Virus record (IMG/VR): IMGVR_UViG_3300046812_000216
Location: 1-64,000 of that record
Length of the DNA stretch: 64,000 nucleotides
Reading direction: 5' to 3' (one strand)
Source of the DNA: a virus
The translations under genes and the position numbers were made by a program. Below the pieces are notes generated by a model. That model made no database searches. It saw only the letters and a program-made list of their open reading frames with translations, and was not told the DNA's origin. Below are positions 4,797-63,637 of this stretch, piece by piece; position 1 is the first letter of the stretch, and each line of letters opens with the position of its first letter.

Positions 4797-5488
4797 TGCC
4801 CCTGATCAAATCGGGCAGCAAGGCTGCGATCTCGAACAATATCTCCGAGATGATCCACGCCGGTCATCCGCGCGATCAGGCGATTGCCGCCGCCATGGAC
4901 ACCGCGCGCCGCGCCACGCGCGATTTCGGCGGTTCAATGCCGCTCGGCAAGCCGCGCGAGCTACAAGGCCTCCAGCAGCTTCAGAAACTGCCCGGCGCGC
5001 CCTCGGCGAAGGTTCACACCGGCCCAATCCATTCCACCGTTTCTGGGCGCACTGACCACCTTCCTGTTCACGTTCCAAGCGGCTCCTACGTCATTCCGGC
5101 TGATGTAATTTCCGGCATGGGCGAAGGAAACACCATGGCCGGTTTCAAAATCCTGAAGCGGGTGTTTTCCGGCCTGCCCTATGGCGGCGGCAAGCAGCCC
5201 TACGGCGCCAAAGGAGGCCCATATGGGCGAGGAAGCAATCCTTACGACAGCGACTTGGGAAAGCTGTATGGCTCATCAATCTCTGGTCACGCCAAGGGCG
5301 GAAAAACCGGGTCGGATGTCAAAGTCGTGGTTGCGGGCGGCGAATTCACGCTCACGCCTCAAGAGGTGCTGAAGGCTGGCGACGGCGACATGGATCGCGG
5401 TCATCGCGTCCTCGACGACTTCGTCAAGCAGATGCGAGGTCATATTGTTCGAACAATGAGCAAACTACCGGGGCCAAAACATGATTGA
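4796..5488 (+). CDS. Conserved phage structural-region protein
   Basis: 230 aa. The ATG overlaps the preceding stop (TGATG), after a strong gaggagggc site. The N-terminus (KSGSKAAISNNISEMIHAGH, then PRDQAIAAAMDTARR) and the central VPSGSYVIPADVISGMGEG motif are seen in many podophage genomes beside ejection genes. A Tyr-Gly-rich stretch (PYGGGKQPYGAKGGPYGRG) follows, and the C-terminus is GGEFTLTPQEVLKAGDGDM. The function is unknown; the position suggests a minor virion or assembly protein. A terminator hairpin follows directly. Confidence 0.7.
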   Translation: MPLIKSGSKAAISNNISEMIHAGHPRDQAIAAAMDTARRATRDFGGSMPLGKPRELQGLQQLQKLPGAPSAKVHTGPIHSTVSGRTDHLPVHVPSGSYVIPADVISGMGEGNTMAGFKILKRVFSGLPYGGGKQPYGAKGGPYGRGSNPYDSDLGKLYGSSISGHAKGGKTGSDVKVVVAGGEFTLTPQEVLKAGDGDMDRGHRVLDDFVKQMRGHIVRTMSKLPGPKHD

Positions 5489-5518
5489 GGGGAGCCGCGT
5501 GAACGACTCCCCTGTTTG
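5488..5518 (+). terminator. Rho-independent-type hairpin
   Basis: Perfect 7-bp stem AGGGGAG (5488-5494) / CTCCCCT (5507-5513) followed by GTTTG, directly after the stop of the 230-aa gene. The U-run is short, so termination may be partial. Confidence 0.55.
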
Positions 5519-5573
5519 CCATGCCAAGCCCCGCCTTACCACGCCCAACCAAGCCGTGCCACGCCAAGCCATC
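5519..5573. repeat. Short (GCCNN)n pentamer array
   Basis: About eleven consecutive 5-base units with GCC (twice ACC) at each first-to-third position and varied dinucleotides between. It lies in the 127-base gap before the GNAT gene. It is the same unit type as the 1.3-kb array at 24462-25752, but without the GCCTGCC phase-jump marker. Confidence 0.75.
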
Positions 5574-23331: not shown

Positions 23332-23856
23332 TCATTCGACAGTGACGGTGACGGCCTCCTTGCCTTTCAATTCTGCGATGTGGGGGAAACCCTTGACGGC
23401 GGCGTCGTAGACGCTCTTGAGGTGATCGTGGCCGGACTCGAACCAATTGACGCGGTCTTCCGGGAACTTGATTTCTCTTTTCTTGAAATCCTCGAAAGCG
23501 TCGAGGACGATCTTGTAAGAGTCGGCGGCCAGACCAAAAATCGCGCCGACATCGGACATCATCGGCAGGGCGCCGTCATGTTCTTCCTTGATGCTTTCCA
23601 GCGTCTCGATGTAGGAGTTTTTGGCGGCGATGTTGTCGAGCACCGCCTTGCCATATTCGACAAAGATCATGAGATCGCCATCGAGCTTGTCGCTGTTCTT
23701 GCTTGTGAGGTAAGTCTCGATCTTGACCTCAAGGGCGGCGATCTTCTCCATGCAGGCGATTTCTTTCTCGCAGCAGGAAATAAGCTCCGAGACACAGAGC
23801 CCCAGCAGCAGGCAATCGGAAATCACGTTTTTATGGAGGGCCATGGTTTTTTGCAT
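23332..23856 (-). CDS. Hypothetical protein
   Basis: 174 aa, mostly helical and acidic, with an N-terminal Cys cluster (ISDCLLLGLCVSELISCCEK) and a central KAVLDNIAAKNSYIETLESI coiled section. It starts after the gaacggacgaacgaa leader shared with other genes here. Nothing is recognised. Confidence 0.6.
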   Translation of the reverse strand: MQKTMALHKNVISDCLLLGLCVSELISCCEKEIACMEKIAALEVKIETYLTSKNSDKLDGDLMIFVEYGKAVLDNIAAKNSYIETLESIKEEHDGALPMMSDVGAIFGLAADSYKIVLDAFEDFKKREIKFPEDRVNWFESGHDHLKSVYDAAVKGFPHIAELKGKEAVTVTVE

Positions 23857-23934
23857 TTCGTTCGTCCGTTCTTGGTGGTGAGGCCCGCATCTTCGGGCTG
23901 ATTCGGGCCTCGTGTCAACAATGAAAAGCGAAAA

Positions 23935-24441
23935 TTATTCGCCTTCCGAGATTTCGCGAATGTTCTGGATGGCGTCGCGAATTTTGGTCATTTTCGCCGT
24001 GTTTCTGGTTTTCTCCGATACCGGCGCGATGCGAAGCAAAAGAGCCACCGAATGCTCCAGATCGGCGATTTTCGAGAAAAACTCGCGAAGCGCAAGGTCA
24101 AACTGGTCCGGCTGGCCGATAAGCCTGACGGTGGGCGTGTAGACCGGATCTGAGGTTTCCGTGCGCGGAACGTGCGTCCACGCCTGAATTTCAACCGGAT
24201 CTCCCTTGGCGTCATTGCAGACGACCGTGACCTGTCTGATCAGGCTCCGCGCCTGATGGACGCGGTGGGCCTCGCCCGCGACCGCATCGTCCCACTCGAA
24301 AGCCGGGTGGAGGACGGCGCCTTCCGGCCGGGATTCATTCACGACATCTTTTGCGTGAAGGCCGCCTTTCTCTTCGTCGATGCGCTCAAGCTCCGTCTGG
24401 ATCTTTTCGACCTCGACGCCTGCGATTGTCCGTTTAGTCAT
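23935..24441 (-). CDS. Conserved phage protein of unknown function
   Basis: 168 aa. The section VLHPAFEWDDAVAGEAHRVH, then QARSLIRQVTVVCND, is a motif I associate with a conserved but unassigned phage/prophage family. The C-terminal half is helical (FDLALREFFSKIADLEHSVA). It is the first gene downstream (minus strand) of the 1.3-kb pentamer array, so any transcript from 26.4 kb would carry the array as leader. Confidence 0.65.
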   Translation of the reverse strand: MTKRTIAGVEVEKIQTELERIDEEKGGLHAKDVVNESRPEGAVLHPAFEWDDAVAGEAHRVHQARSLIRQVTVVCNDAKGDPVEIQAWTHVPRTETSDPVYTPTVRLIGQPDQFDLALREFFSKIADLEHSVALLLRIAPVSEKTRNTAKMTKIRDAIQNIREISEGE

Positions 24442-24461
24442 TTACTTTCTCCATGTTAATT

Positions 24462-25752
24462 GCCTGCCTTGCCAGACCGGGCGGAACCCCGCCTAGCCTT
24501 GCCGCGCCTTGCCTGCCGCGCCTTACCCCACCGCGCCTTGCCCCTCCAAACACTGCCGCGCCCTGCCTGCCTCGCCGAGCCCCGCCGCACCTGACCGGGC
24601 CTCGCCTGCCTTGCCCGGCCGAGCCGCGCGGCGCCGCGCCACGTATCGCCATGCCTGCCTTGCCTTGCCGCACCCAACCGTGCGCCGCCAAGCCTAGCGC
24701 TGCCTGCCTTGCCTATCCGCGCCAAGCCTTGCCTTGCCCGACCCAGCCTTGCCGAGCCTCGCCTGCCTGCCTTGCCGGGCCGTGCCATTCCTAGCCGGAC
24801 CCCGCCTTGCCTGCCGCGCCCGGCCTGACCATGCCTTGCCATGCCGGGCCACACCACGCCTGCCGCGCCCCGCCTAGCCCCGCCTTGCCTAGACGTGCCT
24901 TGCCTCGCCGTGCCTGCCTTGCCTTGCCTTGCCGGGCCAGTCCTCGCCCCGCCTCGCCTTGCCACGCCTGCCTCGCCCCGCCAGACCGAGCCGCGCCCAG
25001 ATCTGCCGCGCCGCGCCTGCCACGCCATGCCTAACCGTGCCGCGCCGAAACAAGCCATGCCATGCCTGCCGCGCCTCTCCATGCCAAGCCGCTCCCGGCC
25101 CGACCTTGCCTCGCCTGCCTCGCCGCGCCTCGCCACGCCTTGCCTCGCCACGCCTTGCCTGCCTTGCCTCGCCAGACCCCGCCCAGCCCTGCGTCGCCGC
25201 GCCAGCCGTTGCCTCGCCCCGCCTGCCTCGCCGAGCCGATCCGAGCCGAGCCCTGCCTTGCCAGACCGAGCCTGCCGAGCCAAGCCTGACCCTGCCCAGC
25301 CGTGCCTAGTCATGCCTGCCGTGCCGCGCCCCGCCTCGCCTCGCCGCTCCTTGCCTGCGTTGCCTGACCATACCCGGCCTTGCCACGCCGTGCCGTGCCT
25401 GCCGAGCCTTGCCGTGCCGCGCCGTACCCCGCCGCGCCAGTCCAGACCGGGACGGACCCAGCCTTGCCTTGCCTTGCCGCGCCTGCCGTGCCTGACCGTG
25501 ACCAGCCTTGCCTTGCCTCGCCGCGCCTGCCGTGCCGTGCTATGCCGGGCCTCGCCATACCGAGCCGAGCCGCGCCACGCGCTGCCTGCCTTGCCCTGCC
25601 TGACCTGACCTAGCCACGCCTGACCGGACCAAGCCTTGCCCCGCCTGCCCTGCCCTGCCCCGCCGCGCCTTGCCTAGCCTAGCCGTGCCGGGCCTTGCCT
25701 GCCGTGCCACACCTTGCCGAGTCGCGCCGAGCCCAGCGTTGCCACGCCTGCG
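24462..25752. repeat. Hierarchical (GCCNN)n array with GCCT phase-jump markers
   Basis: About 1.29 kb of plus-strand pentamers in which GCC is strongly kept at three positions and the other two bases vary freely. The regular phase is broken by single 4-base units (GCCT), seen as GCCTGCC. I count 27 such markers (two as GCCTGCG), from 24462 to 25746. Every marker-to-marker distance I measured equals 4 modulo 5, and 49 is the commonest (9 pentamers plus one tetramer); others are 39, 44, 54, 59, 64 and 84. Long ORFs cross it in several frames only because stops are rare in this composition. No function is known to me. Confidence 0.9.
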
Positions 25753-25793
25753 GCGTTATTGGCGCAGAGAGAACCCTACGCCAATCTCTTGAT

Positions 25794-26423
25794 TTAGTTG
25801 ACGATTTCGAAGGTTCCCCAGCCAAGACCGGCTGATTCTCGGCTGTCAGGACGACCTTCGCCAACGCCAACCTGTAACCCTGCTCTCAACAACAGATTGG
25901 TCACATCTGTCGCTGAAAACTGATCTGCATCAAACTTGACCTTGAGCGTCAGTCCCCACTCGCGCCACATCGGCCGGACGCGAACATCGGTCACGCCGGA
26001 GCTATTGCGGGCGTGCATTTTCAGCATTTCAGGCGCGCCGACATTGAGGCGCACCAGCGGAATTCCATCAACCCGATCCAGCCCATCGGCCAGAACAAAA
26101 ACAGACATTTTTGCGACAGTCATCCGGAACCCAACCAGACGGCAGGCGCTGATCATCGCATTTCTAAATGCTGCGCAAGGAATTCCGATCCAGCCTTCGG
26201 TGCTGTAGTGGATGGCGCCGTCCATATCGGCGCTGAAGTTTCGCGGCTCGCGGATCTTCTTGGAGCGGGCGGTGGTGCCTTCCAGCATTTTGCCTTCCAT
26301 CGCCTGCCGGGCCTTTTCGCTGAAGCGGGCCTGAACCAGAGGAGCAGTGCCGGAGAGCAGGAATTCGAGCGTCTGCACATTCGGCGCGGTGATGGCGACA
26401 ACGGTCTTGATAGGAGCTTTCAT
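25794..26423 (-). CDS. Conserved phage protein, beta-rich, unknown function
   Basis: 209 aa from the ATG behind a gaacgaacgaa leader; an upstream in-frame start exists at 26504. It begins APIKTVVAITAPNVQTLEFL, then SGTAPLVQARF. The middle is EGWIGIPCAAFRNAMISACR, and the end VGVGEGRPDSRESAGLGWGT. The Gly-rich GxGExRP...GLGWG end is reminiscent of RAMP-type RNA-binding folds, but this is only a visual resemblance. It belongs to a phage family that I cannot name. The pentamer array begins 42 bases after its stop. Confidence 0.55.
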   Translation of the reverse strand: MKAPIKTVVAITAPNVQTLEFLLSGTAPLVQARFSEKARQAMEGKMLEGTTARSKKIREPRNFSADMDGAIHYSTEGWIGIPCAAFRNAMISACRLVGFRMTVAKMSVFVLADGLDRVDGIPLVRLNVGAPEMLKMHARNSSGVTDVRVRPMWREWGLTLKVKFDADQFSATDVTNLLLRAGLQVGVGEGRPDSRESAGLGWGTFEIVN

Positions 26424-26522
26424 TTCGTTCGTTCTTTCTTTCGTTTGCGGGGGACGTTTTCCCCTCGACAATTTGCACCATATCGTGTTTGATGGGTTCG
26501 TCAAGCACTAAAGGAGTTGATG

Positions 26523-26699
26523 ATGGCTAAAAATAAATCCCCAAAGACTGAAGTGGTGAAGATGATCGCTTTTTCCATCCGGCTGCGGCCGGAGGTCGCC
26601 GTCAGGCTGCATCGACTGGCGGATAATGAAGAGCGATCTGTCGCGTATATGGTCGGCAAGGCGGTCGATATGCTGCTGGCGGAGCGCGCCCGTGGATAA
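26523..26699 (+). CDS. Ribbon-helix-helix (CopG-like) DNA-binding protein
   Basis: 58 aa. The start is set by aaggag (26511-26516) 6 bases before this ATG; another ATG lies one codon earlier. MIAFSIRLRPEVAVRLHRLA is the RHH beta strand plus helix A, and NEERSVAYMVGKAVDMLLAE helix B. It is first in the plus-strand replication operon and divergent from the array-side genes, so it may regulate this intergenic region (26424-26519). It overlaps the methylase start. Confidence 0.7.
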   Translation: MAKNKSPKTEVVKMIAFSIRLRPEVAVRLHRLADNEERSVAYMVGKAVDMLLAERARG

Positions 26700-27285
26700 G
26701 GCCAGCAAGAAGGAAAGGCGCGCCCAGCGAGAGGTCGAGCTTTCGGGCAAGATCCTCGCCCTGCCCGACAAACGCTATGGCGTGATCTATGCCGATCCTC
26801 CATGGCGGTTCGAGACATGGTCGGAAAACGGCATGGATCGGTCGGCCGAGAACCATTATCCATGCATGAGCCTCGACGCCATCGCCAATATGCCGGTGCC
26901 GAAGATCATGGCTAGGGACTGCGCCCTGTTCATGTGGGCGACTGTCCCGATGCTGGTGAGCGCGCTCAACGTCATGCATTTATGGGGATTCACCTATAAG
27001 AGCCATGCGATCTGGGTGAAGCCAAACGCCATCACCGGCTATTGGTTCAGGAATCGGCACGAATTGCTGCTGGTCGGCACGCGCGGCCAGATCCCGGCGC
27101 CAGCGCTGGGGACGCAATTCGAATCGGTGTTTCTGGCGCCGACCAGCGTCCACAGCGCCAAGCCGGAAAAGGCGGCGCAGATGATCGAGCATTATTATCC
27201 CAACATTCCAAAAGTTGAATTGTTTTGCCGTGGTGCGCCGCGTCCCGGCTGGTCTGGCTGGGGTCAGGAGTGCGAAGGTGAATAA
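26692..27285 (+). CDS. MT-A70 family adenine methyltransferase
   Basis: 197 aa from a GTG start (ggag upstream) that overlaps the RHH stop. The catalytic DPPW is at residues 35-38 (GVIYADPPWRFETW). LWGFTYKSHAIWVKPNAI, then WFRNRHELLLVGTRG, are the family SAM-pocket and core motifs. It should transfer a methyl group to adenine N6 in DNA, perhaps protecting phage DNA from restriction or marking it. No cognate endonuclease is adjacent, so it is an orphan methylase. GANTC specificity of the CcrM type would need a different family. Confidence 0.88.
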   Translation: MDKASKKERRAQREVELSGKILALPDKRYGVIYADPPWRFETWSENGMDRSAENHYPCMSLDAIANMPVPKIMARDCALFMWATVPMLVSALNVMHLWGFTYKSHAIWVKPNAITGYWFRNRHELLLVGTRGQIPAPALGTQFESVFLAPTSVHSAKPEKAAQMIEHYYPNIPKVELFCRGAPRPGWSGWGQECEGE

Positions 27286-27288
27286 TAA

Positions 27289-27349
27289 GGCAGGCTTGGC
27301 AAGGCGTGGCACGGTGTAGCAAGGCCCGGCAGGGTTTGGCATGGCAGGC
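27289..27349. repeat. Miniature (GGCNN)n array, inverted orientation
   Basis: About twelve GGCNN pentamers between two GGCAGGC markers, the reverse complement of GCCTGCC. The markers begin at 27289 and 27343, 54 bases apart (4 modulo 5), so one full super-unit obeys the same rule as the large array. It lies between the methylase stop and the next start. Confidence 0.8.
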
Positions 27350-27365
27350 ATGGAAGGGAATCAAG

Positions 27366-27593
27366 ATGGATAGGAGATTTGAAATGCCGGGCGACGACGA
27401 AGAAGACCTCAAAATGATGCCGATCAGTGTAAATTTTGTGCTGCCGGTCGGCATGATTCGCGCCATCGAGGGCGCGGCGCGCGCCGAAAACCTCGCCCCT
27501 GCCGACTGGATCGTTCAGGTCATGTCGGAGAAACTCGGCTTCACAGTATTTTTCAACCCGCCGGAAGCGCCACCCCGCAACGAGCTTAACTGA
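27366..27593 (+). CDS. Small RHH-like protein
   Basis: 75 aa. The section MPISVNFVLPVGMIRAIEGA, then AENLAPADWIVQVMSEKLG, has the strand-helix-helix layout of ribbon-helix-helix proteins, with an acidic N-terminus (PGDDEEDL). The ATG has aaggg upstream. A DNA-binding role is inferred. Confidence 0.55.
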   Translation: MDRRFEMPGDDEEDLKMMPISVNFVLPVGMIRAIEGAARAENLAPADWIVQVMSEKLGFTVFFNPPEAPPRNELN

Positions 27594-27605
27594 AGGAACG
27601 CACGC

Positions 27606-28121
27606 ATGGCTTATTACATCGGCATCGATCCCGGCATCCACGGGGCCATCGCCATCCTCGATTCGCAGGGCAGGCTCATGCACGTCGAGGACATCCCCAT
27701 CCTGTCGGACGGCGCCAAGAGCCGCTCGACCATCAACGCGCCGCTGCTGGTCGATCTGATTCGCAAGACATACGCCGTCGAGGCTTACGTCGAACTGGTG
27801 GGCGTCCGGCCGGGCGAGGGCGCAGTCGGCGCTTTCGCCTTCGGCCGGTGCCGGGGCGTGATCGAGGGCGCGCTGGCGGGCTGCGGCATCCCGATGACGC
27901 TGATCGCGCCGCCGACGTGGAAAAAGATCTGCGGCATCCCGGCGGGCAAGCTTGGCGCGAAGGATGCGGCGCGCAGCAAGGCCATCGGCCGCTGGCCGGA
28001 CAAGGCGCCGGACTTCAAGCGGGTCAAAGACGCCGACCGGGCCGAAGCGGCGCTGATCGCCTACGCCGGTCTGGTGCGCTTCGGCAAGCTGGAGAAGGTG
28101 AGCGCCGACGACGACTTCTGA
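27606..28121 (+). CDS. RuvC-like Holliday junction resolvase
   Basis: 171 aa. YIGIDPGIHGAIAILD gives the first Asp (D8), AYVELVGVRPG the Glu (E63), and RVKDADRAEAALIAYAG the C-terminal acidic pair (D142/D144). Spacing matches bacterial RuvC (D7, E66, D138, D141). It probably resolves branched DNA before packaging. The start follows the tgaaggaacgcacgc leader. The acidic end (SADDDF) may contact an SSB or replication partner. Confidence 0.85.
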   Translation: MAYYIGIDPGIHGAIAILDSQGRLMHVEDIPILSDGAKSRSTINAPLLVDLIRKTYAVEAYVELVGVRPGEGAVGAFAFGRCRGVIEGALAGCGIPMTLIAPPTWKKICGIPAGKLGAKDAARSKAIGRWPDKAPDFKRVKDADRAEAALIAYAGLVRFGKLEKVSADDDF

Positions 28122-54028: not shown

Positions 54029-54754
54029 ATGGTTTTTCGTCGTGTTGTAATTCGCGGAGTGGCCGAAATCGGCGAAGTGGACGTGACTGGTCCCGTCGAT
54101 CCCGGCTTTGGCCGCCCCGGTGGCGGCGGTCGTCCGGATCAGGGTCTGCCCGGCTACGGTCACCCGGATCAGGATCTGCCGGGCTATGGTCACCCGGATC
54201 AGGGACTGCCCGGCTATGGTCACCCCGATCAGGGTCTGCCCGGCAGGCGCCCGCACCCCGATCAAGGCCTTCCCGGCTATGGTCATCCGGATCAGGGTCT
54301 TCCGGGCTATGGTCATCCCGACCACGGCTTGCCCGGCTATGGTCATCCGGATCAGGGTCTGCCCGGCCTGCCGGTCTACCCCAGTCAGGGACCGATCCTT
54401 CCCGCCGCCCCCGGCCATCCGATTCCAGTGCCGCGCATCCCGGTGGTCAGCGTCATCCCGCTGCCCGAAGGCGAAGTGCTCCCGACTGAACCGCCGCACC
54501 GGCCCGGTAGGATCGCCGTGGTCGTCGATGGCGAAACCAAGGCTGTCGGCTGGCTTCAGGGCTCCGACGACCTTCCGGTCGCCGCGCCCAAGGGCGAAGC
54601 GCCGGTCCCCGGCGGCCACTGGGTGGCGGTCGAAGTCAATCCGCAGGCAAGGCCCAAGAAATGCGGCGACGGCAGCGATGGCGTCGGCAAGACCGGCTTT
54701 GCGTGGGTGTTCGAGGTGAAGCCCGACTGGGGAACGGAGCCGACCCCGGTCTAA
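54029..54754 (+). CDS. Repeat protein with tandem PDQGLPGYGH units
   Basis: 241 aa. aggag lies 7 bases before this ATG; another ATG is one codon upstream. After residue 35 there are about nine copies of a 9-residue unit (PDQGLPGYGH-type), one variant (GRRPHPDQGLP) breaking the series. The C-terminal ~110 residues are a separate unit (RIAVVVDGETKAVGWLQGSD, then GKTGFAWVFEVKPDWG). The 27-base DNA repeat is nearly exact and could change copy number. Function unknown. Confidence 0.7.
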   Translation: MVFRRVVIRGVAEIGEVDVTGPVDPGFGRPGGGGRPDQGLPGYGHPDQDLPGYGHPDQGLPGYGHPDQGLPGRRPHPDQGLPGYGHPDQGLPGYGHPDHGLPGYGHPDQGLPGLPVYPSQGPILPAAPGHPIPVPRIPVVSVIPLPEGEVLPTEPPHRPGRIAVVVDGETKAVGWLQGSDDLPVAAPKGEAPVPGGHWVAVEVNPQARPKKCGDGSDGVGKTGFAWVFEVKPDWGTEPTPV

Positions 54755-61814: not shown

Positions 61815-63637
61815 TGGCAAACGTCCAAATCCCCAACCTCCCCGTCGCCTTGTCGCTTTCCGGCGACGAATCAATCGAGATTGTGCAGGGCGGCGCCTCG
61901 ATGCGCGCCACCACGCAGCAAATGGCCGACTTGTCCACGAAAGGTCCGGTAGGCCCGCCGGGGCCGACAGGACCAACGGGGCCGACAGGACCAACGGGGC
62001 CGACAGGACCGCAAGGCGCGCCGGGCGCCGCAGGCAATCCCGGCGGAACGGCTGGTCAGGTCCAATACAACAATGCTGGCACTTTCGCCGGATTTACGAT
62101 GAGCGGCGATGGCACGCTGGTCGCTTCGACCGGCGTCATCACGGTCACCAAGACCGGCGGCGTGAATTTCGGCCCCTACGCCACGGCGCTGACGCTCCCT
62201 GTGTTCACCAGCGGCGCGGCTGGCGTGGTCCCTGCGTCAGGCGGCGGCACCGCCAACTTCATGCGCGCGGATGGCGCGTGGGCTCCTCCTTCGGCCTCGA
62301 CGGCGGCTGGCGGCACCAATGGGCAGATTCAGGTTAACAGTTCCGGCTCGTTGGCTGGCGTGACGCAAAATGGAACGGGCCAGCCGGTCGGTTCTAACGG
62401 TGCTGCGAGCGTGGTTTTCGGGACGCCCGCCACCGTCAGCAGCGCCTCCGCCAACGCCGTGTTTTTTCTCGCCAAGTCCACGGGCGCGTTCAGCAATCTG
62501 GTGACAGGCCTTTCGAACAGCAATCCGCGCTGGAGCACGGTTCTTGGCGACTCCACGGCGGAATCCGGCTCCAACACCGGGTCTAATTTCGCCCTCACGC
62601 GCTATACCGATGCTGGCGGCGTCATCGACAACCCAATTTCAGTCAACCGCGCCACCGGGCAGGCGACATTCGCGCAGCCGATCAATGCGCCCGGTCTGGA
62701 CATGCGCAACCGGCTGATAAACGGTGATTTTCGTTTTGATCAGCGCAATAACTACGGAACAGTAACCCCCGTGGACGGAAATTTTGTAGCCGATAGGTGG
62801 AAGTTCAGCGCGTCACAGGCCAGCAAGCTTTCCTCGGCAGCAGTGAACAACAGCGGCCTTGCCTTGATTGGCGGCGAATTCCAGACTTATCTCGAAATGA
62901 CGGTGCTGTCTGCGGCCACGATTGTCACTGGCGATCACTTCGGCCTCTTCCAAATCATCGAAGGGGTTTACTGGTACGACCTTGGCTTTGGCTTGTCTGG
63001 CGCGAAGCCGGTAGCGTTCTCTTTCTGGGTCAACACCACCGTTACCGGCACGCATTCCGGGTCGATTCGGAATGATGACGCTTCCAGATCATACCCGTTC
63101 ACATTTTCGGTTCCGACAGCCAATGTATGGACAAAGATCGTCGTTCCCATAGCAGGGGATACCGGCTCGACATGGCAGGGGTTCACCAACGGGGCGGCGG
63201 CCATCTTTGCAATCAACCTCGGAGCCGGAGCGACATATCAAGCCCCAGCAGGCTTCTGGGGGAACGGCAACTACGTCGCGGCATCCGGCTCCGTCAACGT
63301 GGTGGCGAATGCGGCTGCGAAGTTCAGGATCACGGGTCTTCAAATTGAGCAGGGTTTGACAGCGACGGCGTTCGAAAGAAGGCCATATGCAGAAGAATTG
63401 CGGATGTGCCAAAGGTACTACCAACAAGTTGTGTTCCTTATTTTTAATGGAGCGTGGCCTACAGCACTTAACATACTATCTCTTAAAGTTACCATGCGCG
63501 TCCCACCTAATGTAACGGTATCTGCATTAGGTTCTGGCAGCGGGGCGGCGTTTGGTGTTAGTTCGGAATACATATACCAGAACGCAGCCAACTCCGTACC
63601 AACTACTGCAACACTGTTAATAAGCTCGGAGATGTGA
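61814..63637 (+). CDS. Tail fibre with collagen-like repeat
   Basis: 607 aa. Residues 1-40 ([20 protein letters not shown]) are an attachment motif shared with the next gene. Residues ~46-75 are Gly-X-Y repeats ([20 protein letters not shown]) encoded by an 18-base tandem repeat. A beta-rich shaft and a carbohydrate-binding-like C-terminal part follow ([20 protein letters not shown], then [20 protein letters not shown]). ATG overlaps the previous stop. Confidence 0.8.

Follow-up and report, generated by a model that had tools for sequence, protein, structure and literature searches.

The window analysed here, a stretch of 64,000 nucleotides from a virus record, contains a gene for a small CRISPR-like protein, a 1.29-kb array of five-base units and a second conserved gene, in this order along the minus strand, together with two solitary units of the same kind as the array. 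We name these features after the parts of Viral Interference Programmable Repeat (VIPR) systems, described in a preprint of April–June 2026 (PMC13142463).

5488–5513, minus: 11-bp hairpin directly 3' of the 5516 standalone vrRNA (z-score −2.95 on folding all 111 nt)
5516–5570, minus: standalone vrRNA of 11 pentamers and no tetramers, guide TT-GT-AC-TT-TG-GT-AA-GG-TT-AT-AA (two exact targets in IMG/VR)
23935–24441, minus: accessory gene encoding 168 aa (phrog_15946), candidate for the vap of the window's VIPR clade (conserved neighbour)
24460–25748, minus: main vrRNA array, 237 GGYNN pentamers and 26 tetramers (entropy and parse)
25704–25748, minus: guide 1, GT-AA-TG-TC-GC-TC-AA-GT-AC (antisense, with a one-base skip, to V-T-F-D-A-D-Q-F-T, a conserved Vipr motif)
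25749–25752, minus: 5'-most tetramer, CGCA, bounding guide 1 (27th marker at 25746)
25758–25785, minus: hairpin of 12 bp in the gap from the vipr stop codon to the array (folding z-score −4.5; none of 200 shuffles reached its stability)
25794–26423, minus: vipr, encoding a 209-aa Cas7-like RAMP of phrog_4652, a family of unknown function (profile, AlphaFold2, Foldseek)
26477–26504, minus: promoter-like site upstream of vipr, TTGACG-16-TATGGT (consensus scan, one found against 0.5 expected, weak)
27289–27351, plus: second standalone unit, GGCA, 10 pentamers, GGCA, GGCAT (sequence parse)

A profile of 64 Vipr sequences matched PDB entry 36pp_D, "SUSP1 Vipr protein", at E=2.1e-36, the next best match being Csm5 at E=0.065, and the AlphaFold2 model of the window protein (pLDDT 94.5) matches Csm3/Cas7-like CRISPR subunits (Foldseek, best E=7e-6 to Csm subunits). 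With its SUSP1 profile match, its fold and a conserved glycine-rich C-terminus, the protein has the character of a Vipr, an ancestral RAMP with an RRM core and a G-loop. A role in ssDNA annealing, considered on account of a nearby exonuclease gene, was dropped once the SUSP1 match was found. Neither Vipr nor the accessory protein belongs to a Pfam family, stray single-member matches apart; PADLOC called nothing, and a first scan of genome contigs with a single sequence gave no match. The AlphaFold2 model of the accessory protein has a pLDDT of 92, and the protein resembles DNA-binding regulators of the MarR type only weakly (E=0.08). Matches of its family profile to TALE proteins were rejected as an artefact of summed weak repeats, no single stretch passing alone. 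On the plus strand, divergent from vipr, lies a gene for an MT-A70 adenine methyltransferase (26626–27285), which the solitary unit at 27289 follows. The hairpin at 25758–25785 is a possible processing or attenuation site, and that at 5488–5513 may be a terminator or a tail. An Rfam scan of 23500–27800 had as its sole match a sub-threshold glutamine riboswitch at 27510, and a near-identity search with the window's first 25 kb found no match among phage records.

A VIPR system consists of Vipr, a small ancestral RAMP, and of vrRNAs of 9–16 YNNGG units whose GGY letters serve as scaffold while NN carries the guide; reading of the target follows NN x NN x NN, where x is a skipped base, usually at a codon wobble position (PMC13142463). 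Such systems repress competing phages, and sometimes other VIPR systems, fall into seven types that differ in architecture, and may predate CRISPR; a structured 3' tail on the vrRNA is described for the SUSP1 clade (PMC13142463). The window shares with SUSP1, an Escherichia phage with a type II system (PMC13142463, PDB 36pp), a homologous Vipr and GGY/NN pentamer guides on the coding strand by vipr, and the 1-nt-skip reading with skips at wobble positions and the targeting of rival phages and VIPR systems are further likenesses. The two differ in that the window has about 25 guides in one long, GGCA-separated and tail-less array plus two solitary guides, whereas SUSP1 has four guides with tails. 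With the backbone of Class 1 CRISPR complexes (Cas7/Csm3) the system shares the RAMP fold and the principle that a guide RNA is covered by subunits which break up its pairing. In contrast to those systems, VIPR has a single small protein where they have a multi-gene cas locus, and the window lacks a repeat–spacer structure: there are no identical repeats with unique spacers, and the variable guide letters are interspersed in each 5-nt unit.

A dynamic-programming parse of the minus strand from 25748 to 24460 resolves the whole array into 263 units with zero residue and no other indel over 1.29 kb. The tetramers of the final parse are GGCA, once CGCA, and they bound 25 guides of 7–16 pentamers and one empty unit. 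These guides, from 237 pentamers with fixed GGY and hypervariable NN, compare with the roughly 9–16 units of known VIPR guides. The original prediction, made from the plus strand, had described GCC pentamers reset by 27 GCCTGCC/G markers whose 26 distances all equal 4 mod 5 with a mode of 49; on recomputation these figures came out identical, and its super-units of 7–16 pentamers plus one tetramer agree with our parse, in which the tetramers mark real super-units and bound the guides. The extreme spacings, 4 and 84, occur once each and correspond to the empty unit and to 16 pentamers. The first is seen as two tetramers side by side at 24764–24771; the second is guide 6 (25404–25483), possibly two guides fused through loss of a tetramer. 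Between the guides of the main array there is no structured 3' tail. The predicted non-coding nature of the region stands. A comparison of NN composition with codon positions gave no clear signal. The two solitary units, at 5516–5570 (between two plus-strand genes) and 27289–27351, had gone unmentioned in the prediction.

The same grammar recurs far beyond the window. An exact search for GGCNN x8 in viral contigs matched at least 120 stretches, and the fetched loci that we parsed (92, the window included) hold 114 arrays above threshold. Across these roughly 90 sampled viral loci, which include many unrelated contigs, GGYNN runs are broken by a marker, usually GGCA and elsewhere a 7-mer, a 6-mer or none. 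Because the identical grammar recurs across many independent contigs, an assembly artefact is very unlikely to lie behind the array. The neighbouring genes usually have the G-rich strand as their coding strand, and arrays often begin a few bases past the upstream stop codon. A member of the Vipr family lies beside the array, within about 750 bp or less, in 75 of the 92 array-selected loci. Conversely, among 102 loci picked by Vipr protein alone (22 from bacterial genomes and 80 viral), in 97 a GGY array lies no more than 1.5 kb from vipr, and in several of the remaining five vipr lies near a contig end. The second conserved gene, phrog_15946 in the window, is present in 92–93 of the 102 (counted as 73 + 17 + 2 + 1). 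As a control we ran the same scripts on SUSP1, and they recovered its vipr, three GGY arrays and the vipr-adjacent gene, which occupies the vap1 position and matches at E=6e-14 the family-3 proteins that accompany other arrays. The guide set of the window is among the larger ones in the sample.

Our tree of 177 Vipr proteins was made by a quick method and has long branches, and we therefore use its main division alone. The window Vipr falls within a 134-row clade (support 98) that is marked by the second conserved gene and the tetramer, while SUSP1 Vipr lies outside it and goes with another accessory family, that of vap1. Markers of seven bases are almost confined to Vipr clades other than the window's. 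This variation of the delimiter with the Vipr clade suggests that some part of the Vipr machinery reads it. Other phase marks seen in other Vipr clades are the 7-mers GGTTCGN, GGAACGN and GGTACNN, or a 6-mer GGCTAC followed by CTCAG (loci L107:4932-5893, L121:871-1572, L122, L030 and L042, L095). The 325-unit array at L069:1956-3546 (minus) repeats an invariant block, some 35 nt long (GCACGGGAGCAGCAGCATCCGGCG.AAAGGGATGGAC), every few guides, possibly a processing element.

Within this grammar the tetramer-bounded guide behaves as a unit. In 39 loci, successive GGCA marks enclose most often 9 and mostly between 7 and 14 pentamers. The first N that follows GGCA is a purine 88% of the time, compared with 62% within guides, and related loci have gained or lost entire units with respect to each other (L231 and L234; L187 and L188). 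Four loci (L164, L166, L168 and L169) carry near-identical 929-bp arrays whose few changes fall at scaffold positions alone, with 0 of 338 NN letters altered, as expected if guide letters are kept while GGY drifts.

The clearest targets are those of the standalone unit at 5516. Its first ten NN, read with the one-base-skip rule, give a 20-letter gapped pattern that has exactly two matches in 2.9 million viral contigs of IMG/VR. Both are antisense to the motif [YF]MNPFTQNVTN, in proteins that match the DNA-ejection family phrog_4287 (E=5e-4 and 7e-6), and the two contigs have only trivial nucleotide similarity to each other. In both targets the skipped base is the codon wobble position, and the wobble bases differ between them. 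The eleventh NN, which lay outside the search pattern, matches fully in one target (22/22) and by half in the other (21/22). At the level of sequence, this unit thus displays the single-base skip and its wobble placement in two targets at one protein motif. The window itself contains neither the motif nor a match of at least 15/22 to the guide. When the 22-letter pattern was searched with up to three mismatches in 754 genomes of two proteobacterial classes, matches were about as frequent as for a reversed control, and the two bacterial matches that we inspected fell in unrelated host genes.

Taken together, we read the repeat as the guide-RNA array of a phage-encoded VIPR system, in which Vipr-coated guides would repress genes of rivals, with a probability of about 0.93. 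By analogy with the described systems, the phage would almost certainly use the guides and Vipr to find and silence rival phages. Our confidence is high in the anatomy, the partnership with Vipr and the two-letter code, and moderate in what most of the guides are aimed at. Patterns of 18–19 letters from guide 3, guide 4 and the 27289 unit had no exact match in IMG/VR, and when all 796 guides were compared with the 2.1 Mb of fetched sequence the matches did not exceed those of shuffles; most targets would therefore lie outside the searched sequence or be imperfect.

Guide 1 bears on the question of whose genes are repressed. It matches the vipr genes of four other loci (L150, L213, L216 and L218) at 17 of 18 letters and many more at 16 of 18, with the skip at the wobble position in the listed vipr matches. 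Guides of other loci also fall on conserved Vipr codons, one of L135 with 19/20 at DVVNLFSRVG and one of L217 with 18/20. Of 501 shuffles, 1 yielded as many as three guides with 29 bits or more against vipr genes, a gene set picked after the matches had been seen; in a further test with shuffles, a single guide recurring in 17–25 loci turned up in 2 of 14 sets. The exact guide 1 pattern has one match in viral contigs, in an unrelated phage RNA polymerase gene, which we attribute to chance. Relaxed by one letter, a step taken post hoc, the pattern finds nine IMG/VR contigs, four of them in vipr genes, and three of these four contigs were already known. These matches are suggestive, and do not settle, that guide 1 may be aimed at rival vipr genes. 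The window's own vipr also matches it at 16/18, and the array might on that account be mainly self-regulatory, guide 1 repressing its own vipr and not those of rivals. We consider this improbable, since other vipr genes match guide 1 better and the 5516 guide, which finds no comparable match in its own genome, pairs at every letter with another phage.

The reading as a guide array against rivals also fares better than one in which the array is a DNA element, such as an origin or a packaging or recombination site, under a DNA-binding protein that makes one contact per 5 bp. The five-base periodicity and the exonuclease and other DNA-metabolism genes nearby would suit such an element. Against it, vipr is encoded in the same sense as the GGY strand in 73 of the 75 loci where the two adjoin, the partner protein is a RAMP whose relative, an RNA-guided Vipr, has a solved structure, and a DNA coat would leave the guide-like NN matches and the tetramer-bounded turnover unexplained; we regard it as very improbable. 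The original prediction had proposed a wrapping or coating protein on one face of the helix. A coat is retained, with one subunit implied per 5 bases, and DNA wrapping gives way to an RNA-coating RAMP: the array stands on the coding strand of the vipr operon, often just past a stop codon, and has a RAMP as its partner, which places the five-base step on RNA.

Selection on the core, and freedom of the two other bases, had been the central argument of the prediction, and the tests that it had named uphold this. Per-position entropy on the plus strand is 0.83, 0.25 and 0.37 bits for the GCC letters against 1.92 and 1.91 bits for NN, and at lag 5 the autocorrelation reaches 0.60, whereas shuffles give 0.338 +/- 0.011 and the rest of the window at most 0.29. 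Its core of GCC or GGC needs one amendment: about 20% of main-array units carry a core substitution, and half of these changes on the minus strand (32 of 62) are C>T, which makes the core there GGY and not strictly GGC. The NN letters of adjacent super-units agree at 0.095 against 0.086 expected, that is at chance level, and the super-units are therefore not amplified copies of one 49-mer. A functionless, slippage-born microsatellite in decay, for which the simple unit and some length change among relatives might speak, is the least credible alternative of all, since its positions should drift alike and its neighbours be similar, whereas core and NN differ several-fold in entropy, off-phase indels are absent from 1.29 kb, neighbours agree only by chance and the association with one gene family holds in both directions. 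The entropy comparison named in the prediction already refutes such a microsatellite.

Under the guide-array reading, the operon of vipr, array and accessory gene would run along the minus strand and give a transcript that holds about 25 guides of 7–16 GGYNN units each, with GGCA between them. Vipr would coat each guide with one subunit per 5 nt, holding the GGY letters and displaying NN; consecutive NN would pair with DNA with one target base skipped between them, n units reading 3n bases and every third target base, usually the codon wobble, being ignored. The bound complex would then repress the rival's gene, and the guides would have as targets at least a gene for a DNA-ejection protein in other phages and, probably, the vipr genes of rivals. 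Of this scheme, the array anatomy, the Vipr partnership, the independence of the guides and one target pair come from the present data. RNA production, complex formation, the skip rule and repression would carry over from the preprint on other VIPR systems (PMC13142463), and we infer that GGCA marks the sites of processing in the window array and that the array works through repression.

VIPR itself is known; what is new is this locus, the decoded ejection-gene target, the cassette-like turnover of guides, the link between delimiter and Vipr clade and, probably, a guide against vipr. The locus lends independent support, from raw sequence, to the noncontiguous code of VIPR, with a decoded target at the same protein motif in two dissimilar phages. 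A broader reading of the window's clade, which taken as a whole we hold to be a little short of an even bet, is that its members make a long precursor RNA with dozens of tail-less guides, in which the phase mark would serve as a cut or register signal for Vipr or the accessory protein, that guides turn over as tetramer-bounded cassettes, and that some lie on codons of conserved motifs, those of rival Vipr included. The phase mark would be clade-specific, GGCA here and 7-mers such as GGAACGN or GGTTCGN elsewhere, and the targeted motifs would include FDADQF and DVxNLxxRVG of rival Vipr proteins; guides placed on the codons of conserved protein motifs would therefore be broad-spectrum anti-VIPR guides that survive synonymous escape.

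The size of its guide set, the decoded target, the probable guide against vipr and a delimiter that varies with the Vipr clade make guide processing and turnover directly testable, also in laboratory phages of Mycobacterium smegmatis whose vipr is annotated only as a hypothetical protein. We found a vipr relative in 33 phage records. Four phages that are named and culturable or sequenced, Cyanophage Cy-LDV1, Mycobacterium phage Donkeykong and Gordonia phages UmaThurman and ODay (L127-L130), have the same vipr, GGCA-delimited array and accessory gene, and both of these genes are annotated there as hypothetical proteins. Finally, the window contains two other tandem repeats, at 54134–54367 (a 30-bp unit x7.7) and 61959–62010 (a perfect 18-bp unit x2.9); both unit lengths are multiples of 3, and these repeats are therefore possibly coding.
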